This document shows positions 47,746 through 64,000 of a stretch of 64,000 nucleotides of DNA, piece by piece. Position 1 is the first letter of the stretch. Every line of letters starts with the position of its first letter. The stretch lies in assembly GCA_022821965.1 (NCBI GenBank), contig JAJECN010000022.1, forward strand, positions 310,001 through 374,000. The letters run 5' to 3'. This stretch comes from Candidatus Poribacteria bacterium. GTDB taxonomy: Bacteria; Poribacteria; WGA-4E; WGA-3G. Below the pieces are notes generated by a model. It worked only from the letters and a program-made list of their open reading frames with translations, ran no database searches and was not told the DNA's origin. Both the position numbers and the translations under genes were made by a program.

Positions 47746-50652
47746 TTAAGAAGCATCTAATTCAACCTTCGATTTCTTGTCCCCTTGGATACTCGGCTCC
47801 TTGCACAACATCTCCCGAAGCAGTGTAAGCCCCTCATGTACATCCGGACGCTCTTCCTCCGTAATGCCTAATATCTCTGATAACAATAATCGATCGAGTT
47901 CATGACGCACCGGATCGGCATTCATCTGATTAAACGGCAGCATTTTCTGATGTTTCAGTTTATTGAAAATCCGCTCCGCATTCGCGAGTGCTTCATCGGA
48001 GAGTTGACGGACATCCAGTGTAGGCATCGCTTTAAAGGTAGCTCTACTCAAGACTCCTCTACCCTCCTGTTGTTTACCACCCTGATACCAATGACAAAGC
48101 AAACCAAGCGTTGAATTGCACCACAAAGTCCACGCATACTCATGCATTTTGTTATCAAAGACAACATTCGGAAGTTTGTTTACGCCGATAGCATCTCGCT
48201 CAGTAAACATCACCGCTAACGAATTGGCATTAAACTGTAATTCCATGTTGTAATGCACACTCCCGTTCAATTTCATAATTTTTTGAACTTTCTCAGCAGA
48301 ATTTGGACGCGGATGCCCGTGTGAATCCGGAGGAATAAGTATTGATCGCTGAGTATCGGAATCTAAATGCCACAGGCACGGATATGCTGCGGTATCAGGA
48401 CATCCCTTTTCTATATCAAATGCGCCTCTACCACCGCCGCCTCTTATATCTTTGGTTCCAATTCCGAGCGTCGCAACTTCTGAAACTGGACACATCGCGA
48501 GTTGAATATTTGAGGTTTGTCGAGGAATATGTACCAGTCCATGCGCCAGTTGGTGTGCTGATTGAACAACACTCATGTTTTTAACACGGGAAAGCGGCCA
48601 TCCTGCTTCGCTTTGAATAATAGGTGCGGAGATGATATGTCCAATAACCTCATCTCCGATTTGGAGTGGTTCACCACCACTAAGCGTATCATCATCCAAT
48701 CGATGGATATTTTTGAACGTATGGATCCTTTTCGCTATTTCTAATGCTTCTAATTCTCCATGTGGGCACCGCTTGAGACAGACAAACGTCCCGCGTCCCA
48801 TATTTTTCCGTTTTCCCTTTTTCGCAATAACAAGGCACTCTGCCATGCCGGTATCCGCCGAGAAGGCACACTTTTCAATATCTTCATGTGCGATAGTGAT
48901 AACAAGAATATCGTGATACTCTTCTACCCACATCTTTCGCACCTTTTGCCAACTACTGCCAGTGATCACTGTAACAGGTAGCACAAACGCCATTATGCCG
49001 TTGCGTTTTAACATCCTATCTGCAAGATCAATAAAGTCGGGACCTTCCCCAGGATTGTTACCGGTAAGTCGACGCCCTTGTGCCTTCCGCGCTGCTCGCA
49101 TCGCCGCTGCTTCCTTTTTATCGGCGAAAATACTCTTGGGGACGTTTGAATTTCCATCAGCACCGCTACGGGTATAGGGTGGATTTTGGATAACAATGTC
49201 GAATTCACCATGTCTGAACGCATTTCGGAGATCGGTGGTTTCTGTGCCTTGTCCTGTGGTGGTTTCTGTTGTACCGAAGTTCAACGGGAGTGTCCCCGCT
49301 GGATCGCTGAGTAGGTTGAGAGCACCGATGGCGTAAAGTCCATCGGCGCGCGGCGTGCCGTAAGGCATTGTGTGGATGCGTGTGCCACCGATGCGGACAT
49401 CAGGATAAGTACTGGCAATGATAGAGGCGGTCAGATGTGCTGCATTCGGTAGGATATCACATCCAACGAGATTATTTTCCATCATGTACTGATGGATGGT
49501 TTCCGCTTTACCGCCTGCTTGCTCGTAGAGCATGAGGAGCCGTTGATAAACGCCATTGAGGAGTGAACCGGTGCCGCAGGCGAAATCTGCGATCTTCAGT
49601 TTCTTTGGATCGCCTTTGAATTCTGGTAACGCGAGGGCGCACAGGAGTGCCGAGGATTCAGGACGAGTATAGTTCGCTTTGAGGATTTCCCGATTGACGA
49701 TGACTTTCTGGAACACAATACCTGCAAGTTCATGTTCTTGGGCAAGTCCCATCTTCTCTAACTCGCGGGCAGTATCCCGCAACACACTCAAAATCTCACC
49801 GACAAGTTTATCGTCAGCCACAAGCACTTCGACGAGATTGTAGGCGACGTTGAAAATCGGGGCATAGTTTACCTTTTGGATTTCTCGCCATGCGCGGAGG
49901 ATTTCGTCTGAATCGAGTTGCCCATAATCAGCAGTGAGTTCACTGAGCGATGGAACGGTTTCCAAGTCCGGCTTACGCGCGAGGGAACTTTGGAACACAA
50001 GAGCGTTGCTAATAATAAGCATCGCCATTTGTGTTGTTTGTTCGCCGGGTTCCTGGACAAGGAGTTCTCCTATTCTTTCGCCGATATGCGGTCGGTCTTG
50101 AATCGCGCGATTGACAATGACAGCGGCACGGTGAATGCCGTTTTCCAATACCTCGGCGGCTTGCTCAATCTTCGTGATAGGTGTTGCCCCGATACGGATA
50201 GCAGTTGCGATGTCGGCAATGCTGCCGTGAAGCCATCCTTTTTTTGGAAATCTGTGGGGTTCGTCAACGCTAAGCAGTGTATATGCGAAATCATCGGACG
50301 CTTCTAAATTTTCTCGGATTTCGTCGCGTGGCATTGTGCGGAATCTGTACGGAAGACGGATCGCTATTGCACTGGTAATTGTTTCACCTGTCGTGCGGAG
50401 GGTCTTACCCAAGTAATGTTCGCGTGCCTGTTTTTCGCCGGTTTCATTGGGACCGCGTTTGTAGTCAATTTTCACCTCAACTGCCATTGGATATCGTTCA
50501 ACTGTACGGATGATGACATCTGGTTTTCTCTGATTCTCAACGAGTGGTTTCGTGGTTTGCTCGTAGATATCCCATGTGGCACTCATCGGCATTAGAATTT
50601 CGACGAATAGGGTGGTGATGGTGTCTTCGCTGTTAGTGTGTTGGTGGTTCAT
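47746..50652 (-). CDS. Fused restriction-modification enzyme (nuclease plus N6-adenine methyltransferase)
   Basis: A 968-residue protein. The N-terminal 100 residues contain RKPDVIIRTVERYPMAVEVKI, a PD...ExK pattern of restriction nucleases (Asp and E-x-K). The centre holds the methyltransferase motif I IADFACGTGSLLNG and motif IV IVIQNPPYTR. The C-terminal part probably recognises the target. The layout suits a type IIG or similar single-chain restriction-modification enzyme. The next gene upstream on the minus strand, 36 bases away, encodes an OLD-type nuclease and is likely in the same operon. The recognition site cannot be read from sequence. Confidence 0.85.
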   Translation of the reverse strand: MNHQHTNSEDTITTLFVEILMPMSATWDIYEQTTKPLVENQRKPDVIIRTVERYPMAVEVKIDYKRGPNETGEKQAREHYLGKTLRTTGETITSAIAIRLPYRFRTMPRDEIRENLEASDDFAYTLLSVDEPHRFPKKGWLHGSIADIATAIRIGATPITKIEQAAEVLENGIHRAAVIVNRAIQDRPHIGERIGELLVQEPGEQTTQMAMLIISNALVFQSSLARKPDLETVPSLSELTADYGQLDSDEILRAWREIQKVNYAPIFNVAYNLVEVLVADDKLVGEILSVLRDTARELEKMGLAQEHELAGIVFQKVIVNREILKANYTRPESSALLCALALPEFKGDPKKLKIADFACGTGSLLNGVYQRLLMLYEQAGGKAETIHQYMMENNLVGCDILPNAAHLTASIIASTYPDVRIGGTRIHTMPYGTPRADGLYAIGALNLLSDPAGTLPLNFGTTETTTGQGTETTDLRNAFRHGEFDIVIQNPPYTRSGADGNSNVPKSIFADKKEAAAMRAARKAQGRRLTGNNPGEGPDFIDLADRMLKRNGIMAFVLPVTVITGSSWQKVRKMWVEEYHDILVITIAHEDIEKCAFSADTGMAECLVIAKKGKRKNMGRGTFVCLKRCPHGELEALEIAKRIHTFKNIHRLDDDTLSGGEPLQIGDEVIGHIISAPIIQSEAGWPLSRVKNMSVVQSAHQLAHGLVHIPRQTSNIQLAMCPVSEVATLGIGTKDIRGGGGRGAFDIEKGCPDTAAYPCLWHLDSDTQRSILIPPDSHGHPRPNSAEKVQKIMKLNGSVHYNMELQFNANSLAVMFTERDAIGVNKLPNVVFDNKMHEYAWTLWCNSTLGLLCHWYQGGKQQEGRGVLSRATFKAMPTLDVRQLSDEALANAERIFNKLKHQKMLPFNQMNADPVRHELDRLLLSEILGITEEERPDVHEGLTLLREMLCKEPSIQGDKKSKVELDAS

Positions 50653-50688
50653 AGGTTTCTATTTCCGTTTGGCGATATATAGCGTCTG

Positions 50689-52599
50689 CTATTCGGAGGC
50701 TGGCTGTTGACCAGAAGGAGGCTGATACGTATTCTTAAACTGCTTGAGAATTTCCACTACCTTCTTAAATTCCTCAAAGTCAGCAGGATCTTTCCGCTCT
50801 TCACAAATCCATTGACAGAATTCCACTTTTTTGAACTTAGGATCAACCTTGTTCCTACCATGAATACCTTTTTTGATTTTGTTATCATAGAAACGATCCT
50901 CAAAAAGGTCCGTAGGAAGAAGGTTCTCAATGCCCTCCTTGTCATCATCAGGATTTTTTGGAATAGATCTTACCCAAAGTTTTTCAATTTGTTCATCTGG
51001 CTTACCCGAATCCCAATCATAAAGCAGCAACATTGGTTGATTTATCAACGAGGAATCCTTCTTATGAAAGTTTAGGACACGATTTAATCCATCCTTTCCT
51101 CCATCCTCATCACCCTTTTTCCCCATTTTACCAATAGGTCTAATTTCCAGCGAATTCAAGAGTTCTTCCTCTCCAAGCATCTCCAATGCTGCTCGAATGT
51201 AGCGAACATCTAACTTTCCTTCGGTCATTACAACAGGTTTGGTTATCTTTGCAATAAGTTGTTTTATCTCGCTTTCAAAGCGTTCTGTGTTCTGGTAGTA
51301 TTCAAAGGCTTTTCCGAATTCAGAAAACCGTTCACTAGTAATTCTGTCTCCATCCGGTAATTCAAGAATGTCAAGTCCATCTGGACCAAACTCCTTTTCC
51401 ATACCAAGCAGAAACAATGGAGAGTGGGACGATACGATGAATTGAACCTTCGGAAACATTTTTATGAGTTGAGGGAGGACATCGTGTTGAAGAGTTGGAT
51501 GCAAATGAGAGGCAATTTCATCTATGACGACAATCCCCGTAATATCAGCAAGGCGAACGCTCATGACCAGATTATCTCGTTCACCATATCGAATAATTGT
51601 AGTGAATAGGTGGAACAATTGAGATTGACCTTCCGATAAAGATTGTAGGTTAGGAATCCTCTGTCCATCCGCTAACTGTATGACGAGTCTATGCTCTGGA
51701 TTGTTCCGAAGCCTTGGCTCTAATTTAGCCCGTTCATCTTGAACTACCTTTCGTAATATGTATTCAATATTCTCCCGAGATACCTGAAGAGCAGCCCAAC
51801 CGTTCCATTTTCTTTTCACCTCCTCACTTAAGAAAAGTGAGTCGTCCGATCCCCTTTGAAGTCTCTGTATTATATCAAAATCAACTGCTGCGTCAAACAA
51901 AACATCTAATATCCAACCAATATTTCTTTCCGCACAAGTTTCAACTCTAAGAGGTTTGTCAAGCTCAGTACTAAATCGAGGATTCACAGGAACACCCATA
52001 TTAACTTCCAAACTTCTAGGGTTCAGCCAAACAGGATCCTCATGTCGACTTGCGGGAAAAAAGGCATACGCTCCATTTCTCATTTCAGTTTTAATAATCT
52101 CTCCAACAGGTGATATATCCACGTCAATTTCGCCCGCTAACCAGTCGTTCATTAAATCATCCTCTTTGCCAGTCAATACGCGTTTGTAATTTCCCTCTGT
52201 TGACCAGTTCCACAACGGCATAAATACAGATTTCACACTGGGAGAATAAGTTTCTGGATCAAGTACTCCAGCCTTTTCGCAGTAGTACAAACTGTCATTA
52301 TTCGCTTTGAAATGAAGAAGGCTTAGACTAAATGGTTCTCCACTTTTGATTGCCGCTGGACGAATAATTCGGAAATATGGTTTTTGCCCTGAACTATCCA
52401 AGGACACAATGTCTCGGAAGGCCTCCTTCGCGAACTCCATAAGTGCATCAACGATGTAGGAGAGAAAAACGCTCTTTCCAGATCCGTTGGGACCGACAAT
52501 TACAATAGGTAAAGGGTTTTCGTTATTATCAAAAGAAGGCTTGACATGGCATTTTGAAATGGGTCCGGTGTTTTCCAGATATATTTCTTCGAGATACAT
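50689..52599 (-). CDS. OLD-family nuclease: AAA ATPase with C-terminal TOPRIM
   Basis: A 636-residue single-chain OLD-type enzyme. Walker A is GPNGSGKS at residues 36-43; the signature-like LSEGQSQLFHLFTTI and Walker B GIVVIDEIASHLHP follow. The TOPRIM part starts at KPVVMTEGKLD, with Glu460, and has the DxD pair at Asp528 and Asp530 (LLLYDWDSG). OLD proteins cut DNA with metal ions and act in phage defence in several known systems. It is the first gene of a two-gene unit with the fused restriction-modification gene. The Walker B and TOPRIM acidic residues are all present, so it should be active. Confidence 0.9.
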   Translation of the reverse strand: MYLEEIYLENTGPISKCHVKPSFDNNENPLPIVIVGPNGSGKSVFLSYIVDALMEFAKEAFRDIVSLDSSGQKPYFRIIRPAAIKSGEPFSLSLLHFKANNDSLYYCEKAGVLDPETYSPSVKSVFMPLWNWSTEGNYKRVLTGKEDDLMNDWLAGEIDVDISPVGEIIKTEMRNGAYAFFPASRHEDPVWLNPRSLEVNMGVPVNPRFSTELDKPLRVETCAERNIGWILDVLFDAAVDFDIIQRLQRGSDDSLFLSEEVKRKWNGWAALQVSRENIEYILRKVVQDERAKLEPRLRNNPEHRLVIQLADGQRIPNLQSLSEGQSQLFHLFTTIIRYGERDNLVMSVRLADITGIVVIDEIASHLHPTLQHDVLPQLIKMFPKVQFIVSSHSPLFLLGMEKEFGPDGLDILELPDGDRITSERFSEFGKAFEYYQNTERFESEIKQLIAKITKPVVMTEGKLDVRYIRAALEMLGEEELLNSLEIRPIGKMGKKGDEDGGKDGLNRVLNFHKKDSSLINQPMLLLYDWDSGKPDEQIEKLWVRSIPKNPDDDKEGIENLLPTDLFEDRFYDNKIKKGIHGRNKVDPKFKKVEFCQWICEERKDPADFEEFKKVVEILKQFKNTYQPPSGQQPASE

Positions 52600-53951: not shown

Positions 53952-53980
53952 TTGAATGTTATAGAGAAATGTTTTATAAT
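53952..53980 (+). promoter_or_regulatory. Promoter for the helicase-methyltransferase operon
   Basis: A TTGAAT box and a perfect TATAAT box are exactly 17 bases apart. The first gene downstream is a 65-residue protein, about 135 bases on. Confidence 0.7.
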
Positions 53981-54115
53981 GCAAATAGGGCGGACGGGTT
54001 GATTTCAACTGGATCGTTAGAGGAATCGATTAATTCAGTTTAATCGGGTTTGTAGAGTAGCAGGTTATTTTCCGGTCAAAATTCTAACACCAAAGCAATT
54101 ACCGGAGATTGAAAC

Positions 54116-54313
54116 ATGAACGAGATTCTGGAGGAAGTCCGCGAAGCGAAGCGACGAGTTAACGCTCGCTTCAATCATGACGTTCATAAGTATTGTGCCG
54201 ATGTAATGCGTAGACAGGAAGAACTCAAGAAGCAAGGTGTGAAATTTTCACGCCTGAACGATACACAGAAGTTAAATTCGGATTGTCCGAAAACTAATGA
54301 CACGGATGCATAA
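54116..54313 (+). CDS. Small charged protein, paralogue of the PIN partner
   Basis: A 65-residue protein with KRRVNARFNHDVHK followed by KKQGVKFSRLN, matching the small protein that overlaps the PIN gene at 8.3 kb (RREISARFNHD, then KAGYKFADL). GGAG sits 9 bases before the ATG. No PIN toxin is adjacent here; it leads the helicase-methyltransferase operon by 67 bases. It could be a regulator of that operon, a stray antitoxin-like protein, or unrelated. Confidence 0.65.
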   Translation: MNEILEEVREAKRRVNARFNHDVHKYCADVMRRQEELKKQGVKFSRLNDTQKLNSDCPKTNDTDA

Positions 54314-54380
54314 ATATCGCGTTGAACATCACACGGCAACATCATTTGATCTGTGATGCGGTGTTCGTCCACAAAACACA

Positions 54381-57300
54381 ATGTTAAAAACCTCCCGAAT
54401 TCGAGACAACAATATATACGGCACCGTTGCCAATTTTCTAAAGGATAAAATCCAAGACGGTGCGTCCCTTTCCTTCGTCTCCGCCTATTTTACAATTAAT
54501 GCCTTCAATGCCCTCAGAGATTCACTGACTGGCATTGATAACCTCCGTTTTCTCTTCGGTGAACCGGATGTTATCGGTGGAATGGATCCCTCAAAAACAG
54601 AGAGTAAAGCGTTTCGTCTCACCGAAAATGGGTTGGAACTTGGGAATCAACTCTCCCAAAGTGAGATTGCCAAGGCGTGTGCTGATTGGATTAAGAAGAA
54701 GGTTAAAATCAAATCGGTACGCAAAACAAATTTTCTGCACGGCAAGATGTATTATATTGAGAACGGTAATAGCACAGATGCAATCATCGGCAGCTCAAAT
54801 TTTACCGTGCGCGGTTTGGGATTAAGCGGCAAAGCAAGCAACATTGAACTTAACCTTGAAGTTGACAGCAAGAGCGATTGCGCCGATCTGAAGACATGGT
54901 TTGATAGCCTCTGGGAGTCGGACCAGGTAGTGGATGTCACTGCCGAGGTATTACAGAATCTGGCGAATGCTTATCAGGACAAAGACCCTGAATTCATCTA
55001 CTACAAAACCCTCTACCACCTCTTTGAAGACTTTTTGACAGACGCAAGCGATATGCAGTTTGCCGAAGCGAATCCTTCATTCTTGCAGACAGAAATCTGG
55101 CAGACGCTTTACGCTTTTCAGAAGCACGGTGTGCAGGCGTGCATCCAGAAACTCAAGGCATATAATGGGTGTATTATCGCTGATAGCGTCGGATTGGGCA
55201 AAACCTACGAGGCACTCGCGATTATCAAATACTTTGAATTGCGAAATGCAAATGTCTTGGTGCTGTGTCCGAAAAAATTAGAAAAGAACTGGACGCTTTA
55301 TCCAGTACACTTTCGCAGAAGACGCAATCCATTGAAAGCCGATAGGTTCCGTTACAACGTGCTGGCGCATACGGATCTGAGCAGAGACCATGGGGAATCC
55401 AACGGCATTGACCTTGCACAGCACGAATGGGATGGATACGATCTCGTGGTCATTGATGAATCCCACAACTTCCGAAATCGATCCACCAACACACTTGATC
55501 AGAACGGTAACCTTGTCCGTAAAAGCCGCTATAATAAGTTATTAGAGGATGTCATCCAGAGTGGCGGCAAAACTCAGGTTCTCATGCTTTCCGCCACACC
55601 GGTCAACAATCGACTCACTGACCTTGCGAATCAGATCTGTTTAATCACTGAAGATGAGGACGACGCTTTTAGACAGACTGGTATTCCAAGCATTAGAGGG
55701 ACGCTCAACGCTGCACAAAGTCGTTTTGATACGTGGACAGCAGAAGCTGAACAGATGCACGAAAAGTCTCAAAAACAGGAAAGTCTTTCGGAAAGCCTGA
55801 ACGCTGATTTTTTTGCCCTGTTAGATCGACTCACGATCGCCCGTTCCCGCACACATGTCATAAACTTCTATGACAATCCCATTGAGGAGGTTGGTCAGTT
55901 TCCAGATCGCGAACCTCCGAAATCTATCTTTCCTGAAATTGATCTGCAAGGTAAATTTCCGACCTACCAAGCGATTAGCCACCAAATTGATGGCTATAAA
56001 CTCGCACGCTTTATTCCATCAAATTATATCCGTAAAGAATGCCGCCATCATTATGGCGAGAGGCTTCTCCGGCAACGCGAATTCAACCTTATCGGCATGA
56101 TGAAAGTGAACTTCCTCAAACGGCTTGAGAGTAGTGTTCACTCCTTCACAACTACATTGGAACGCACCGTTAAAGAAATTTCCAAACTTGAATCCGATAT
56201 TGAAGACTTTTTAAATGGGAAAATGAAAAAAGAAGCTGGCTTTGATCCGTTGGCTGAGGCAGAGGAAGAATATGCGGAAGATGAAGATCATGAACTACAG
56301 GATGGCATAGAAGCAGGAAAAAACCAGTTCTATCCATTTGAACATCTCGACCTTGACGCTTGGCTTGCCGATCTTCGGGACGATAGAATGCAATTGGATA
56401 AAATTTACCAAATCGGGAACAACATCACACCCGCGCGCGATGCCAAATTGGAGCAACTCAAGCAGCTGATTGCCACCAAGGTGCAGAACCCCGAAAAAAA
56501 TAGAAATGGGAAAGAGAATCGCAAAGTCCTTGTCTTTACCGCCTTCGCCGATACTGCTAACTACCTTTACGATAATCTGCACGAATGGGCAACCGAGACG
56601 CTTAATATCGAGAGTGCTGTCGTTACCGGTGGTGCAAGCAGAAGCGATCTCGTCCGAAATGACTTTGACGAAATTCTCACCAATTTCTCGCCGATCTCCA
56701 AAGAGCGGGAGGATGCTGAAAACGAAGGAGAAGATACTACTCCCGAAATTGATCTTCTCATTGCTACCGATTGTATCTCTGAAGGGCAAAACCTACAGGA
56801 CTGCGACTATCTCATCAATTACGACATCCACTGGAACCCTGTCCGTATTATTCAACGTTTCGGACGAATTGACCGTATTGGTAGCAAAAACAAGAAGATT
56901 TATCTCGTCAACTTCTGGCCCACGCCTGAACTCGACGAATACATCAATCTCAAACCTCGCGTTGAGGCACGCATGGCACTCGTCAATCTCACTGCTACAG
57001 GCGACGATGATCTGCTCTCATTGAAGGAAAAAGAGAGCATGGAACAGGTCTGGACACACCGCGACGAACAGATCCGTCGCATGAAAACCGAAATCCTTGA
57101 TTTTGAAGATATTGAGGAGCAGTTGAATCTCAACCAATTCACACTTGACGATTTCCGGGCGCAGCTGCTCGACTACCTCCGTCAAAATGAAGCGAAACTC
57201 AGAGATGCTCCGCTTGGCTTATACGCCGTCACCGCACCGCTCACACACGAGGGGATTCCTGTGAATATCAAACCGGGGGTTATCTTCTGTCTAAAGCAGA

Positions 57301-57692
57301 CCGGTGAGGGAGAGGATAGTGAAGAAGGTGAAAAACTCAACCCGATTCATCCTTACTACCTCGTACATATCAGTGAAGATGGCGGGGTTTCTATTGGATT
57401 CACCAATCCGAAGAGCGTCTTAGAACGCTTCAGTCGGCTTTGTGTGGGGAAAACATCTCATGATCAAGATCTCTGCAACTGGTTTAACGAGGAAACTGAC
57501 AATGGCAACGATATGACGATCTATGAGATGCTACTTGATACCGCACTGAATTCAATTCGTGAGGAATACAATCGGAAGGTCAACGATCAACTTGACGCGA
57601 GTGCCGATGCGCTGCTGCCGACTGCTGATAGTCAGATTACGGAAAAGACTGAATTTGAACTCGTTACGTGGCTCGTGATTCATCCTTCTTAA
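54381..57692 (+). CDS. PLD nuclease-like domain fused to SNF2-type helicase
   Basis: An 1103-residue protein. Residues 1-190 form a phospholipase-D-like domain with one HxK motif (FLHGKMYYIENG, His120, Lys122) and SSNFTVRGLG. The SNF2/DEAD helicase follows: ADSVGLGKT (267-275), VIDESHNFRN (359-368), MLSATPVNN, VFTAFADTANYL, and the late DCISEGQNLQDCDYLINYDIHWNPVRIIQRFGRIDRIGS, with the arginine fingers. An acidic patch (EEEYAEDEDHE) sits between the lobes. The two next genes encode an Eco57I-type methyltransferase and an OLD-type nuclease with 20 and 5 base gaps. The methyltransferase pairing recalls DISARM drmD-drmMI, but drmA/B/C are missing. Confidence 0.88.
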   Translation: MLKTSRIRDNNIYGTVANFLKDKIQDGASLSFVSAYFTINAFNALRDSLTGIDNLRFLFGEPDVIGGMDPSKTESKAFRLTENGLELGNQLSQSEIAKACADWIKKKVKIKSVRKTNFLHGKMYYIENGNSTDAIIGSSNFTVRGLGLSGKASNIELNLEVDSKSDCADLKTWFDSLWESDQVVDVTAEVLQNLANAYQDKDPEFIYYKTLYHLFEDFLTDASDMQFAEANPSFLQTEIWQTLYAFQKHGVQACIQKLKAYNGCIIADSVGLGKTYEALAIIKYFELRNANVLVLCPKKLEKNWTLYPVHFRRRRNPLKADRFRYNVLAHTDLSRDHGESNGIDLAQHEWDGYDLVVIDESHNFRNRSTNTLDQNGNLVRKSRYNKLLEDVIQSGGKTQVLMLSATPVNNRLTDLANQICLITEDEDDAFRQTGIPSIRGTLNAAQSRFDTWTAEAEQMHEKSQKQESLSESLNADFFALLDRLTIARSRTHVINFYDNPIEEVGQFPDREPPKSIFPEIDLQGKFPTYQAISHQIDGYKLARFIPSNYIRKECRHHYGERLLRQREFNLIGMMKVNFLKRLESSVHSFTTTLERTVKEISKLESDIEDFLNGKMKKEAGFDPLAEAEEEYAEDEDHELQDGIEAGKNQFYPFEHLDLDAWLADLRDDRMQLDKIYQIGNNITPARDAKLEQLKQLIATKVQNPEKNRNGKENRKVLVFTAFADTANYLYDNLHEWATETLNIESAVVTGGASRSDLVRNDFDEILTNFSPISKEREDAENEGEDTTPEIDLLIATDCISEGQNLQDCDYLINYDIHWNPVRIIQRFGRIDRIGSKNKKIYLVNFWPTPELDEYINLKPRVEARMALVNLTATGDDDLLSLKEKESMEQVWTHRDEQIRRMKTEILDFEDIEEQLNLNQFTLDDFRAQLLDYLRQNEAKLRDAPLGLYAVTAPLTHEGIPVNIKPGVIFCLKQTGEGEDSEEGEKLNPIHPYYLVHISEDGGVSIGFTNPKSVLERFSRLCVGKTSHDQDLCNWFNEETDNGNDMTIYEMLLDTALNSIREEYNRKVNDQLDASADALLPTADSQITEKTEFELVTWLVIHPS

Positions 57693-57712
57693 AGTGAAAA
57701 GGCAGGACCTAT

Positions 57713-60700
57713 ATGAATTCAGAAATAACAATCAGACAAAACATTGAAAACGTCCTAAAGAATTTCGATCAACAACCGCTAAGAGAAGCCTCCATAACCC
57801 TCCTGAACACCCTCGGCTACTACAGCAAGCGAGTTGGAAACGACGATATAGATAGCGATAGATTCGATCGTCTTACTGCAGCCGCATTAGAAACTGCTAA
57901 CCCAACCGATAAACTCTGCATTGACGATTGGCAATTCTTTTTTCAGATCATGCAAGTAGCGGATAGTGAAATTAACCAACAGATAGCCCCAGCACAAGGG
58001 ACGTTGTTTGAAAGCACCCAGATAGAAGACACGCTCAGAACCTCTTATATGTTTGTCACGGTTCAACTGACCAAAAACACCTACACACGCACACAACTTG
58101 CTAACATCACCCGTTTTATCAATAAAGCACTTGAAAAAGCGATCATGGTGATATTCCGATACGGTGCTGTGCTCTCCCTCGCCATCATTAACCGTAGACC
58201 TAACCTGAGCAACGATACAAAGCAGGTTTTGGAAAAAGTGACGCTTATCAAGGATATTAACCTGGATTCCCCGAAACGTGCACATATTGATATTATATCG
58301 GAACTCTACCTTCGCCACCTCATTGAAAATGAAAATGTTCGTAACTTTGATACACTCCACAATGCGTGGGAAGGTATCCTCAATACAGAGGCACTCAATA
58401 AACGTTTCTATCGTGATCTTGAAGAGTGGTATGAATGGGCAGCATCAGCAGAAACGTGCAAATTTCCTGATAAGAAAAACAAAACACAAGTTATCCGAAT
58501 GGTCACGCGGCTGCTCTTCATCTGGTTTCTTAAAGAAAAAGAACTCGTGCCATCAGACCTATTTGACGAAGAAGGGACGCGAGGATACCTGAACGATTTT
58601 GATTTAGAGACATCCGATTACTACCAAGCTGTCCTGCAAAATCTCTTCTTCGCGACGCTAAACACACCGCTAAATAACCGCGCCTTCAGTAGACGGAATA
58701 ACGACGATAATCGGAACGCAAATAAATATCGTTATGAAGACTTCCTCCAAAACCCTGATGGATTTCTGGAGCACCTTAAGCAGGTACCATTCGTTAACGG
58801 TGGTTTGTTCGATTCTCTTGATTCGTTTAAGGGACAACGCGTCGGTGGTGTCCGTGTTGATTGCTTCACGGACAATGAAAACCACAGACAGAAACTACAC
58901 GTCCCAGCAAAACTCTTTTTTGAAAAAGATAACGGCATCTTTGAGATTTTCTCGCGCTACAAGTTTACCGTCGAAGAGAACACACCCGTAGAGCAGGAAG
59001 TCGCGTTAGACCCGGAACTGCTCGGACAGGTATTTGAGAATCTGCTTGGGGTATATAATCCCGAATCGGAAGCCGCCGCCCGCAAAACGACTGGGTCCTA
59101 CTACACGCCGCGTCAGATCGTTGACTATATGGTAGACGAGGCATTGATCGCTTATTTCCTTGAGAAAGTTGAACCTTATGACGGTGGACAGGAGTGGTTG
59201 GAAGAGCGGCTCCGAGAGGATCTCCTTGCATACAACCGACTTGGCGAAAAGGATAAACCGAACGATCACCTCATCCATGAAGCAGAAATCGATCCGTTGA
59301 TCAATGTGATAGATGAACTTGAAATTCTTGACCCCGCCGTTGGATCTGGTGCTTTCCCGATGGGAATTCTTAATAAACTCGTCTTGATCCTGAAAAAATT
59401 GGACCCGGAGAATGAGCGTTGGAAACAGCGACAAATCGAGCAGGCGGAAAAGATTCCTGACCCGCAAAGCCGAGAAGTCGCGCTTGCCGGTATTACTGAA
59501 GCCTTTTCGGAGGCGAACCAATACAACAATTACGGACGTAAACTTTACTTGATTCAGAACTGTATCTATGGTGTAGATATCCAACCTATTGCTGTGACGA
59601 TTGCCAAATTACGTTTTTTCATTTCGCTCATTATAGAACAAGAATCAAATGATAACCGAGACGCGAACTATGGCATCCGTCCACTCCCCAATCTGGAGAC
59701 GAAGTTGGTCGCCGCCAATACGCTCATCGGGGTAAACAAAGAGGCACAGCAGCTCCTATTTGAAACTGATCCTATCAAGGAGAAAAGGATAGAGATTGAA
59801 CGCATCCGTTATAAATACTTCAGTGAAAACCTACGCTCAAAGAAACTGAGGTATATCAAAGAAGAAAAAGCATGCCGTGAAGAATTGACTAAGTTGCTGA
59901 TAGGTGAGCAGGAACGCTGGATGACAGATGCACAAAACAAAATATCTGAACAGGTTAGTAAATTTCAGACAGAGCAGGCGCGCATGGAAGTTCGTGAAAA
60001 ACTCGAAAAGACGTATGTAGTTCAGAAATCAAAACTGTCTGCACACTTCAAAGAGGCAAACCGAATTGCTCACTGGGATCCGTATGACCAAAATGCTGTT
60101 GCTGATTTCTTTGATCCTGAGTGGATGTTCGGTATCACGGATGGATTTGATATTACCATCGGCAATCCGCCTTATGTCAGAGCAGATGCTGGCGCGGATG
60201 ATCCGATACTGCGAGAAAAGATTAGAGTAATGCGTCAGGAGATTAAAGACAGTAAACAGTATAAAACACTTTTTAAAAAGTGGGATCTGTTTATCCCGTT
60301 TATTGAACGGAGTTATAAACTTCTCACACCAAGCGGTTTTACAACACTCATCGTTTCTGATGCTTACTGTAACGCGCCATATGCTCTGAAATCACAAGAG
60401 TGGTTTCTGGAAAACAGCAAAATCTTACGACTTGATTTCCTTAGCAAAGTTCAGATTTTTGATGCCTCTGTAAAAAATGTTATCTATCTCTTTCAACACG
60501 CGGATGGAAGCAATCACAAACCTGAACGCCGCGAACATTACCCAGAATTTGGCAAAGTCCATCTCCTATCAACCGACAAACAGCAAAATCTTACGTACCG
60601 GACATTTTTCCCAGAAGATACTGCTGCGCAGCAATTCACAGTCCCAACAATAACGCTTGATAACATCTGCTATATAACAACTGGAATGGAGGTTCAAGCA

Positions 60701-61393
60701 GATGAAAAAAGAGCACAAGGTGCATTTAAGTTGGAAAATTTGGTTTCAGACGTAAAAGATGACATTCATCCAAAACCTTTTGTTGAGGGAAAACATCTTG
60801 ACAGATGGCTTCCTGCTACACATAAATGGCTGGAGTGGGAAACAGAGCGGGCACCTGCTTTATTTAGAAGTGCGAAATTTCCTGAGATTTGGGATGTGGG
60901 GGCGAAGATATTAATTATGCGAATTACAGGCGGAGAAGTACAGGCAGTTTTAGATGAATCACGGTTGCTTTGCAACCATACTGTAGTAGTGTCTGTACCA
61001 TGGCATAGTTTCACTGGTATACGTAATAGATCAATAAAAATATCAACTCGTTACCGTGATGAAAAACCTCAACGCCCGGATTTGCCTCAAAGGGAAGCAC
61101 TTGAAGAGACAAGCCGCCGAATTGCGATTAAGTTTTTGATTGGCGTAATGAATTCTGCTGTCGCTTATGATTTTCTGCAATCGAATCGGCGGAGTAATAC
61201 AGATCTCTATCCTAATGACTGGAAAAAACTACCGATTCCGGATGTGTCGCCTGAACAACAGGCTCCGATTGTTGAATTGGTTGATAAGATTCTCGATGCC
61301 AAGCGGAAAGGGCTTGAGAGAAAAGTAGTTCGCCTTGAAAAGAAATTGGATAAATTAGTGTCCGCACTTTATGGAGTTGAAAATGAGGAGTGA
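57713..61393 (+). CDS. Eco57I/PglX-type adenine DNA methyltransferase
   Basis: A 1226-residue protein. The N-terminal 500 residues are of the type found in BREX PglX and DISARM MI-like enzymes, ending with RKTTGSYYTPRQIVDYMV. Motif I is LDPAVGSGAFPMGIL (near residue 539) and motif IV is IGNPPYVRADA (near 818), as in N6-adenine methylases of the Eco57I kind. The C-terminal part (after residue 960) resembles TaqI-type target recognition, ending with a helical tail. It probably marks host DNA so that the helicase and nuclease spare it. The 20-base gap to the helicase suggests cotranscription. The nuclease residues of true Eco57I were not recognised. Confidence 0.9.
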   Translation: MNSEITIRQNIENVLKNFDQQPLREASITLLNTLGYYSKRVGNDDIDSDRFDRLTAAALETANPTDKLCIDDWQFFFQIMQVADSEINQQIAPAQGTLFESTQIEDTLRTSYMFVTVQLTKNTYTRTQLANITRFINKALEKAIMVIFRYGAVLSLAIINRRPNLSNDTKQVLEKVTLIKDINLDSPKRAHIDIISELYLRHLIENENVRNFDTLHNAWEGILNTEALNKRFYRDLEEWYEWAASAETCKFPDKKNKTQVIRMVTRLLFIWFLKEKELVPSDLFDEEGTRGYLNDFDLETSDYYQAVLQNLFFATLNTPLNNRAFSRRNNDDNRNANKYRYEDFLQNPDGFLEHLKQVPFVNGGLFDSLDSFKGQRVGGVRVDCFTDNENHRQKLHVPAKLFFEKDNGIFEIFSRYKFTVEENTPVEQEVALDPELLGQVFENLLGVYNPESEAAARKTTGSYYTPRQIVDYMVDEALIAYFLEKVEPYDGGQEWLEERLREDLLAYNRLGEKDKPNDHLIHEAEIDPLINVIDELEILDPAVGSGAFPMGILNKLVLILKKLDPENERWKQRQIEQAEKIPDPQSREVALAGITEAFSEANQYNNYGRKLYLIQNCIYGVDIQPIAVTIAKLRFFISLIIEQESNDNRDANYGIRPLPNLETKLVAANTLIGVNKEAQQLLFETDPIKEKRIEIERIRYKYFSENLRSKKLRYIKEEKACREELTKLLIGEQERWMTDAQNKISEQVSKFQTEQARMEVREKLEKTYVVQKSKLSAHFKEANRIAHWDPYDQNAVADFFDPEWMFGITDGFDITIGNPPYVRADAGADDPILREKIRVMRQEIKDSKQYKTLFKKWDLFIPFIERSYKLLTPSGFTTLIVSDAYCNAPYALKSQEWFLENSKILRLDFLSKVQIFDASVKNVIYLFQHADGSNHKPERREHYPEFGKVHLLSTDKQQNLTYRTFFPEDTAAQQFTVPTITLDNICYITTGMEVQADEKRAQGAFKLENLVSDVKDDIHPKPFVEGKHLDRWLPATHKWLEWETERAPALFRSAKFPEIWDVGAKILIMRITGGEVQAVLDESRLLCNHTVVVSVPWHSFTGIRNRSIKISTRYRDEKPQRPDLPQREALEETSRRIAIKFLIGVMNSAVAYDFLQSNRRSNTDLYPNDWKKLPIPDVSPEQQAPIVELVDKILDAKRKGLERKVVRLEKKLDKLVSALYGVENEE

Positions 61394-61398
61394 GATAC

Positions 61399-63087
61399 AT
61401 GAAGATAAAATCGATTAAACTAAAAGATTTCAAACGTTTCACAGATTTGAGTATTGAAGGTTTACCTGAAACGGCAAAACTCGTGGTGATGATCGGTCCG
61501 AATGGATGTGGGAAGTCCTCGGTGTTTGATGCTCTGAATACTTATCCCTATAAATTAGGAATGGCGGCGGATGATGTTGAATATTTGGAAAAATATTATC
61601 AAGATATGGATTATTATACTAAATCTAATGAACCCAGGTACAGTATATCTTACTACAAGAGTTTGCAACAGACTCAAGAACAAAGAATGATTTCTTACGA
61701 ATGGGACATAGCAAATTCGTATTCACCTGATCGTACTTGGCATGATGTAACGGTTGAGTTTGACAAAGATATAGGATTTCCAGGATCATATATATTCGAC
61801 AAAAGTATCCGTGTGCGTACCGCTTATAGGAACAGTTCAACACTACCATATACCATCAATAGGATTGATCTTACGAAAGAACGTAGGCGCGGCAGCCTGA
61901 TAGAAAACGACGAGGTGTTTGCATCAAATTATTGGAAGTTAGCACTTCAATGGTTAGAACGTAGTTCCGAAGTTGGAGGAAACACACAAAACTTGGTCGA
62001 TTTTCAAAATGAAACTCTTGATGAACTCCGTGGCGCGTTGGGTAATTTATTCAACGACCCACCATTGATATTAAAAAATTTAGGAAATCCTTTAGATGGA
62101 AACCTATTCCAATTTGACAAAGGAACAAGCGAAAGGTTTTCATTTCAGAATCTGGCAAGCGGCGAAAAAGCTGCTCTTGACCTACTACTTGATGTCATTG
62201 TAACAAAGGCAGAGTACAACGAAACCATAATTTGTATTGACGAACCAGAAGCTCATATCCACACGAAACTGCAGGGACAACTTCTGGAGGAACTCTACAA
62301 CCTTATTTCTCCTAAATCGCAACTTTGGATTGCCACACATTCCATCGGCATGGTACGCAAGGCACAAGAACTTTGGGAGGAAGATCGAGAATCAGTCGTG
62401 TTTCTTGATTTCGGTAAGGATAATTTTGATAAGCAAGTAACGCTCAAACCCATTACACCGGATCCAGACTTCTGGGCGCGTACCTATGAAGTTGCTCTGG
62501 GAGACCTCGCTGAATTGGTGGTAACCGGGCGGACTGTGTTCTGTGAGGGTGAAGAGTTTGACGCTGAGTGTTATAAGAACATTTTTAAGAATCGTTACCC
62601 AGAAATTGATTTTGTTTCTTTGGGTGCGAGAGGAAACGTCGAAAAGTCTGTAACGGCAGCGAATCTTGCTATCGAGAAGATTGCGAAGAGTGCAAAAGTT
62701 ATCGGAATTGTAGACAGGGATAAAGCAACGTGTGGGGAAATAAAGCGGAACGCCAAAAAAGGCATCCGCACTCTATCGCGGAAAACCATCGAAAGTTATC
62801 TCCTTGACGACGAGGTGCTAACTAAACTATGTGAAGACTATGGCGCGCCCGATAAGATTAATGATTTACTTACAGCGAAACAAGATGCCCTCGACAAACA
62901 TGGATTAAAATCGTCGGATAACCTGAAGTCTATTGTTCAGGAGGTACATGGCGCTGCTCAAAAGGTTTTAAAATCAGCTTACTTGGGAAATGACAAGGGA
63001 AGTTTCATGATGGATGTGCTTGCCTCGCGCATTCAACCCGGTATGAAGGTCTATGAGCAGCTACACAAGGACATCTTCGGAGGGTGA
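61399..63087 (+). CDS. OLD-family nuclease: AAA ATPase with C-terminal TOPRIM
   Basis: A 562-residue ATPase-TOPRIM protein. Walker A is GPNGCGKS (33-40), with LASGEKAALDLLLDV and TIICIDEPEAHIH as signature and Walker B, and ATHSIGM carrying the switch histidine. The TOPRIM part has RTVFCEGEEFDAE (Glu383) and VIGIVDRDKA with the DxD at 439/441. The ATG follows GAGGAG; a GTG three codons earlier would overlap the methyltransferase stop. It is probably the nuclease or a signalling ATPase for the PLD-SNF2 and methyltransferase genes. It differs clearly from the OLD at 50.7 kb in sequence. Confidence 0.9.
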   Translation: MKIKSIKLKDFKRFTDLSIEGLPETAKLVVMIGPNGCGKSSVFDALNTYPYKLGMAADDVEYLEKYYQDMDYYTKSNEPRYSISYYKSLQQTQEQRMISYEWDIANSYSPDRTWHDVTVEFDKDIGFPGSYIFDKSIRVRTAYRNSSTLPYTINRIDLTKERRRGSLIENDEVFASNYWKLALQWLERSSEVGGNTQNLVDFQNETLDELRGALGNLFNDPPLILKNLGNPLDGNLFQFDKGTSERFSFQNLASGEKAALDLLLDVIVTKAEYNETIICIDEPEAHIHTKLQGQLLEELYNLISPKSQLWIATHSIGMVRKAQELWEEDRESVVFLDFGKDNFDKQVTLKPITPDPDFWARTYEVALGDLAELVVTGRTVFCEGEEFDAECYKNIFKNRYPEIDFVSLGARGNVEKSVTAANLAIEKIAKSAKVIGIVDRDKATCGEIKRNAKKGIRTLSRKTIESYLLDDEVLTKLCEDYGAPDKINDLLTAKQDALDKHGLKSSDNLKSIVQEVHGAAQKVLKSAYLGNDKGSFMMDVLASRIQPGMKVYEQLHKDIFGG

Positions 63088-63170: not shown

Positions 63171-64000
63171 TTAGACATTTTCATATTCTTGAATAATATC
63201 CTCAAGTGTCAAGTCAGGATAATATTCACGTTTTCGTTTGATATTGGCAAAATCGTGTTCAATCGGATTGTAATCCGGGGAATAAGGCGGCAGAAATAAT
63301 AGGCTCGCTCCTGTCCCCTCTATGAGTTGGCGCGTCTGAGACGTCTTGTGAAGCATCGCATTATCCAAGATCAGAACGTGATTTGCGGTCAAACGCGGAC
63401 AGACCATCTCGGCTAACCACTCATTGAAATCTGCGGATTTACATCCACCCTGAAGCAGACGCGCAGCGCTGAAAGTCCCTTGAAAACGCGCAGCAAGCAA
63501 GGTCCGAGTCCGAGTGCGTTGACTTGAGATAAGCCCATAGACGGCTTCTCCTTTCGGGGCATACCCGTAACGTCTATGACTTTCGTCTCGGAACCCACTC
63601 TCATCGGCATAAACCACGCATTTGCCAGCCTGCTGGAGTGCCGCGAGGTCTTGGCGATAGGCAGATCGTTTTTTCGGACATCGCTCCTTATACCCGAGTG
63701 TTTTTTTTTCGCGTGATACCGAGAGTTTTCAAGGCGTAGTAAATGCAAAACTCCGAGACACCAAAATGGCTCGCACGCTCTGCCTGAGTTTCATCTGGGA
63801 AGTCAGCGACATGTTTTTCAAGCGCATGGAGGTCAAGGGTTCTCGGACCCCGAGGACCCGGTTTCTTACGCACCAATGGATCCTCGGCATTCAACCACGT
63901 ATACAGAGTTGCGCGTGCGATGGAAAACTGCCGGCAGGCTTCGGTCTTTTTACCGCCAGCTTCAATGAACGCTAAAACGCGTTTGCGTAAATCTGATGAA
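63171..64000 (-). mobile_element. IS630-family transposase in two frames (runs off the right edge)
   Basis: The catalytic half (to 63617 and beyond) has YADESGF, VLILDNAMLH and LFLPPYSPDYNPIEHDFANIKR, the DDE core of IS630. The N-terminal half is in another frame, from about 63688 to the edge, with LRKRVLAFIEAGGKKTEACRQF and TLYTWL, the helix-turn-helix part. The frames meet at a run of nine A residues (minus strand). One A fewer would join them. IS630 members may use frameshifting at A-runs, so it may be active, or it may be a pseudogene or a homopolymer error. Terminal repeats could not be set because the other end is outside the window. Confidence 0.88.

Follow-up and report, generated by a model that had tools for sequence, protein, structure and literature searches.

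A helicase-methyltransferase restriction core with an attached PARIS-like ATPase-Toprim gene in Poribacteria

Introduction

In PARIS defence, AriA detects anti-restriction proteins made by phages and in response frees AriB, a nuclease that cuts tRNAs (PMC9122126, PMC12409363). Salmonella BREX has ariAB embedded in it (PMC11341690), and PARIS-like modules have been recruited to BREX systems (PMC12839542), so that PARIS-type recruitment by BREX is already published and is not new as a general idea. Embedding does not prove coupling, because Ocr has so far not triggered the BREX-embedded PARIS of Salmonella (PMC11341690). BREX-related systems are defined by DUF499, and their type-2 form needs DUF499 together with DUF3780 (PMC12839542).

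Here we describe an operon from a Candidatus Poribacteria genome (assembly GCA_022821965.1), found in a window of 64,000 nucleotides on contig JAJECN010000022.1 (positions 310,001 to 374,000). A sequence-only reading of this DNA had proposed a hybrid between DISARM or BREX and OLD-type defence. Our analysis instead points to a small restriction-modification (RM) core with a PARIS-like gene behind it.

Results

Four co-directional open reading frames are present (Table 1), and the three large ones constitute a real, conserved defence operon. The 65-residue protein reported ahead of the three large genes has its reading frame, and the reported spacings of 67, 20 and 5 bases hold exactly, given a third large gene that starts at ATG 61399. 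This is most likely its start, judging from relatives that begin at the same MKI residues; the codon is preceded by AGGAG, and the alternative GTG would give a 4-base overlap with the methyltransferase gene. A good promoter had also been claimed. The promoter-like site is there, but that kilobase holds three sites of this type against 1.7 expected by chance, and since the count is not above chance for the region the site is weak evidence. Homologues of the 65-residue protein (80-88% identity) occur only before the helicase genes, or helicase remnants, of three relatives (L138, L167 and L171); it was rejected as a core component because the closest intact relatives do not have it.

Table 1. Features of the operon and its surroundings, in window coordinates
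Feature	Position	Strand	Basis
Promoter-like site TTGAAT-17-TATAAT	53952..53980	+	10/12 consensus matches
65-aa ORF, optional leader ORF of unassigned role	54116..54313	+	homologues upstream of helicase genes or remnants
Gene 1 (P0001, 1103 aa): HKD (PLD) nuclease + SNF2 helicase, putative restriction motor	54381..57692	+	PADLOC C3a139, conserved motifs
Gene 2, N6-methyltransferase: N-terminal and catalytic part up to motif IV NPPY	57713..60175	+	motifs; conserved among relatives
Gene 2, C-terminal target-recognition half, exchanged between relatives	60176..61393	+	DNA homology end, C-terminal classes
Gene 3 (P0003): single-chain OLD-type ATPase + Toprim, PARIS AriAB-like	61399..63087 (alternative GTG 61390)	+	profile, motifs, fold
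Gene 3, hypervariable segment (residues 61-140) between Walker A and remaining ATPase	61570..61809	+	candidate sensor
Gene 3, Toprim-like catalytic region (residues 385-468)	62542..62793	+	DUF4435 20.4 bits, alignment, model
IS630-type transposase remnant; parts operon from syntenic 311-aa / HD-domain / 190-aa block past window end	63171..63999	-	

The domains ascribed to the three large genes were confirmed: HKD/PLD with SNF2/Helicase_C, an Eco57I methyltransferase, and an ATPase with a Toprim-like C-terminus. For gene 1, the best PADLOC profile is C3a139 (HKD+Snf2), matched over nearly the full length at 408.8 bits. To our knowledge, C3a139 exists only as a library entry, with no mechanism known. 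The motifs HxK...GSxN, GLGKT, DESH, SATP and QRxGRxxR are kept in 72-74 of the 74 members of the helicase family. Three relatives on plasmids (L280, L281 and L282) are accompanied by DUF4391 and a Mod-type methyltransferase, and in two of these loci a DEAD/DEAH helicase gene follows, which represents another combination of modules.

Gene 2 encodes an Eco57I-class methyltransferase of 1226 residues, with DPAVGSG at residue 540 and NPPY at 818, and scores 202.9 bits against the PADLOC type IIG profile. The solved fold nearest to its model is BREX PglX, a weakly supported likeness in a model of low pTM (0.39). A PD-(D/E)XK nuclease was sought in residues 1-210, and no acidic/ExK set is invariant there across 16 relatives, the model being of modest confidence. 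The 5.7-Mb genome to which the window belongs is rich in RM genes, with about 40 over-cut-off matches to two DNA methyltransferase families. A second pair of ATPase and methyltransferase genes lies next door on the reverse strand (47746-52599): an OLD/PtuA-type ATPase (50689-52599), which matches the retron Ec67 fusion effector at its C-terminus, is followed after 36 bases by another Eco57I-type methyltransferase (47746-50652).

To place genes 1 and 2 among other genomes, 84,980 species genomes were scanned, yielding more than 580 helicase relatives, of which 80 were kept. A methyltransferase gene comes next on the same strand in 63 of the 68 HKD-SNF2 loci that have at least 1.5 kb downstream, in 37 of them within 150 bases. 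The HKD-SNF2 helicase and its methyltransferase are thus a widespread two-gene restriction core, and the window holds this core, an HKD-SNF2 protein and then a large Eco57I-type methyltransferase, with motifs intact. Behind the methyltransferase lies a slot with interchangeable contents, occupied by AriAB-like, TIR-TPR, SMC/OLD-type ATPase, GmrSD, Fic or DUF1016/YhcG genes. SMC/OLD-type ATPases fill it in about 12 loci from several phyla, usually with a 4-base overlap and in some cases with DUF3800 or TIR; the Poribacteria loci carry a TIR-TPR or an AriAB-like gene. None of the 34 other HKD-SNF2 genomes outside Poribacteria has a close relative of gene 3, so the AriAB-like version is seen here only in Poribacteria.

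Gene 3 had been called an OLD nuclease. This holds in the broad sense, as an ABC ATPase is followed by a Toprim domain in one chain and the whole length of the model can be aligned with other ATPase-Toprim proteins (the retron Eco8 effector, GajA and OLD), but the closest match is PARIS AriAB. AriAB is its best PADLOC profile (131.7 bits), matched by 18 of 18 family members, and the AAA_15 (63.3 bits; threshold 32) and AAA_21 (64.7 bits; threshold 27) scores exceed the published thresholds for PARIS detection. Walker A, SGE, IDEPE, CEG (E386) and DxD (D442, D444) motifs are all present; of the Toprim acids, E386 and D442 are invariant among the 18 members and D444 is kept in at least 90%. The Pfam domain DUF4435 reaches only 20.4 bits, under its cut-off of 27. 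On these profile scores we file gene 3 as PARIS-like rather than as a strict PARIS member. This affinity points to anti-anti-restriction, and not to a stand-in for drmABC. The same genome has a paralogue of gene 3 beside an ApeA HEPN gene (L114 8577-11773, contig C2).

One segment of the ATPase departs from this conservation. Among seven close relatives, residues 61-140 share 14-34% pairwise identity, compared with 74-83% immediately before the segment and 85-91% around Walker B; the segment was modelled with low confidence, while the Toprim region is conserved. Residues 61-140 may form a trigger-sensing surface.

The three-gene order was sought in other genomes, and the genes do keep together in relatives. 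In 85 genomes of the phylum, searched for the AriAB version with their neighbourhoods read, helicase, methyltransferase and AriAB genes occur in this order in six poribacterial loci (the window, L115, L117, L118, L120 and L121), the helicase gene being split at a contig end in L117 and ending at a contig edge in L121. L138 and L139 share a deletion scar that corresponds to window positions 54686 to 62904 and joins helicase residue ~102 to AriAB residue ~505. Because the scar leaves the beginning of gene 1 fused to the tail of gene 3, the whole operon was once present there.

The gene 3 family also keeps other company. At eight loci it lies directly behind type III Mod genes (Res + Mod) with a 4-base overlap. 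In L125 (8871-12548, reverse strand), Mod and AriAB share one frame of 1225 residues, which might reflect a real fusion or else an assembly indel where the two genes overlap in ATGA. Of the 23 informative family members, about 19 adjoin a DNA methyltransferase gene, against some 40 such genes in a 5.7-Mb genome, although the members are related and the counts therefore not independent. The family does not need a methyltransferase, since its relatives elsewhere (a Zymomonas plasmid, viral contigs, cyanobacteria) are mostly solitary genes. A single-sequence search of viral contigs with the gene 3 protein gave no match, whereas a profile search with the family found relatives, mostly without a methyltransferase beside them. 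In Trichormus variabilis plasmid C (L273, NC_007412.1 257154-263162), a DISARM locus harbours AriA and DUF4435 genes after its methyltransferase gene, which they overlap by 4 bases, and ahead of drmA. Nostoc plasmids carry close copies of this AriA.

Comparison within the helicase clade revealed how the operon varies. The helicase tree broadly tracks host groups, whereas by their methyltransferases five of the six AriAB loci group in a clade of their own. Across 14 helicase-clade loci, AriAB carriers share methyltransferases (mean identity 0.641 versus 0.538; rank 5 of 2002 labelings) but do not share helicases (0.770 versus 0.773; rank 853 of 2002). The N-terminal 700 residues of the methyltransferase are mostly well conserved, and its C-terminal half falls into discrete classes, one of which contains five of the six AriAB loci. 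Homology of the window DNA to L151, L152 and L120 stops at 60174-60183. With L151, the closest helicase relative, the alignment is unbroken through gene 1 and the catalytic part of the methyltransferase, ends at 60175, exactly on the NPPY codons, and picks up again at 65006, inside an HD-domain gene past the window end. The replaced segment therefore runs from the recognition half through AriAB and takes in one more gene. Its right-hand flank is this HD-domain gene (~460 aa, PF19276/PF01966) with a partner of ~190 aa, a block that stands beside the operons in L117, L118, L120, L151, L152 and L161 and also beyond the window (L283 71-3013; contig positions 374071-377013). Overall, the helicase stays, while between conserved flanks the recognition half tends to be replaced along with AriAB. 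The link is strong and not absolute, because L120 has AriAB with a different recognition half.

Discussion

We lean, with only slightly more confidence than doubt, towards an RM system with an attached guard of the PARIS type, that is, an anti-anti-restriction module. The PglX-like methyltransferase would mark self DNA, and the HKD-nuclease/SNF2 motor would cut DNA that lacks the mark. The ATPase-Toprim protein would be kept inactive in the resting state, until a phage protein that disables the restriction machinery, such as an Ocr-like DNA mimic, frees a Toprim RNase activity and growth stops. By analogy with PARIS, we infer the guard role of gene 3, including its trigger and the cleavage of tRNA as its target, and the system would have a methylated site of its own. 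In favour of this reading are the core pair, the AriAB likeness of gene 3, the kept gene order with the shared scar, the recurrence of the family beside methyltransferase genes, its joint exchange with the recognition half, and the precedents in BREX and DISARM; the low DUF4435 score, the stand-alone relatives, L120 and the Salmonella result with Ocr speak against it.

The hybrid proposed at the outset, in which an OLD nuclease replaces drmABC, now appears highly improbable. The SNF2 helicase and Eco57I-type methyltransferase do recall DrmD and DrmMI, as had been noted, at the superfamily level, and PglX is the nearest (weakly supported) methyltransferase fold. Gene 1, however, reaches 155.9 bits where the DrmD equivalog cut-off is 610, and belongs to an HKD-SNF2 family of its own, with hundreds of loci and its own methyltransferase. 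Neither Pfam, PADLOC nor NCBIfam profiles found PglZ or BrxC among the three operon proteins, and DUF499 (PF04465) has no match in the whole genome. The reported absence of drmA extends to the whole genome, where the DrmA profile gave only weak matches, all to SNF2 helicases themselves; for drmB and drmC, it extends to the list of open reading frames in the next 20 kb, which contains no candidate. Those 20 kb, on the same list, hold the HD-domain block and housekeeping-like genes, none of drmABC size. The DrmD score and the lack of DrmA and DUF499 rule out membership of either system.

Two further explanations concern gene 3 itself. It might be an independent abortive-infection gene that hitchhikes on the exchange of recognition halves at a defence hotspot, which we regard as unlikely but worth serious weight. 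The unrelated effectors found in the slot at other loci, the stand-alone relatives of gene 3 and the NPPY breakpoint, which leaves the recognition half and AriAB physically adjacent, would all fit such a gene, and given that adjacency the joint exchange could be simple linkage. Mere hitchhiking sits less well with the independent, fixed 4-base attachment of the family behind type III Mod genes, or with a two-gene PARIS right behind the methyltransferase in DISARM. Alternatively, the ATPase-Toprim protein might be an integral effector, a second nuclease activated by the methyltransferase or helicase at unmodified sites, rather than a guard. Its translational coupling to the methyltransferase gene and its co-exchange with the recognition half are in keeping with this idea, but helicase and methyltransferase are paired in 63 of 68 relatives even though the third gene varies or is missing, indicating a core that works without gene 3, and AriA in the literature senses phage proteins rather than DNA sites (PMC9122126, PMC12409363). 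We judge an integral effector improbable.

If gene 3 is a guard, the recognition half and AriAB might further constitute a matched cassette, in which the hypervariable ATPase segment adapts the guard either to its partner methyltransferase or to whatever inhibits methyltransferases of that class. We think this refinement improbable; were it true, switching restriction specificity would also switch the guard. The Poribacteria set, in which the same helicase is found with different recognition halves and effectors, offers a natural experiment on guard-defence matching. More generally, the operon extends the notion of restriction plus suicide backup from BREX to small two-gene RM systems and type III Mod genes, with a modular backup slot right behind the methyltransferase. 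Within the literature searched, three things appear to be new: the small RM core with its slot, the family's parallel occurrence behind type III Mod genes, and the joint exchange of AriAB with the recognition half, although the ABC-ATPase survey of Krishnan 2020 may describe some of these operons.

Compared with known systems, gene 1 is closest to PADLOC C3a139, by the match described above. Gene 3 has in common with the fused AriAB of PARIS (PMC9122126, PMC12409363) a single-chain OLD-type ATPase and Toprim with the same catalytic motifs, and differs in its sub-threshold DUF4435, its hypervariable segment and its place as the last gene of an RM operon. CglI and NgoAVII (PMC4267653, PMC5737866) have separate R and helicase proteins, in contrast to the fusion seen here, and a very different methyltransferase. 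Type-2 BREX-related systems (PMC12839542) share the N6-methyltransferase and the SNF2 helicase with an HKD nuclease fused to its N-terminus, but require DUF499 and DUF3780, and the window's genome is without DUF499. PARIS in Salmonella BREX (PMC11341690) and PARIS-like modules in BREX and BREX-related loci (PMC12839542) likewise place an AriAB-type module in a modification-based defence locus, whereas the core here consists of two genes, HKD-SNF2 and methyltransferase, with no PglZ, BrxC or DUF499. The DISARM class with DrmD and DrmMI shares an SNF2 helicase and a large N6-methyltransferase, from which the window is set apart by its missing drmA and below-cut-off scores; yet the true DISARM of Trichormus plasmid C nests AriA and DUF4435 in the corresponding place, behind its methyltransferase.
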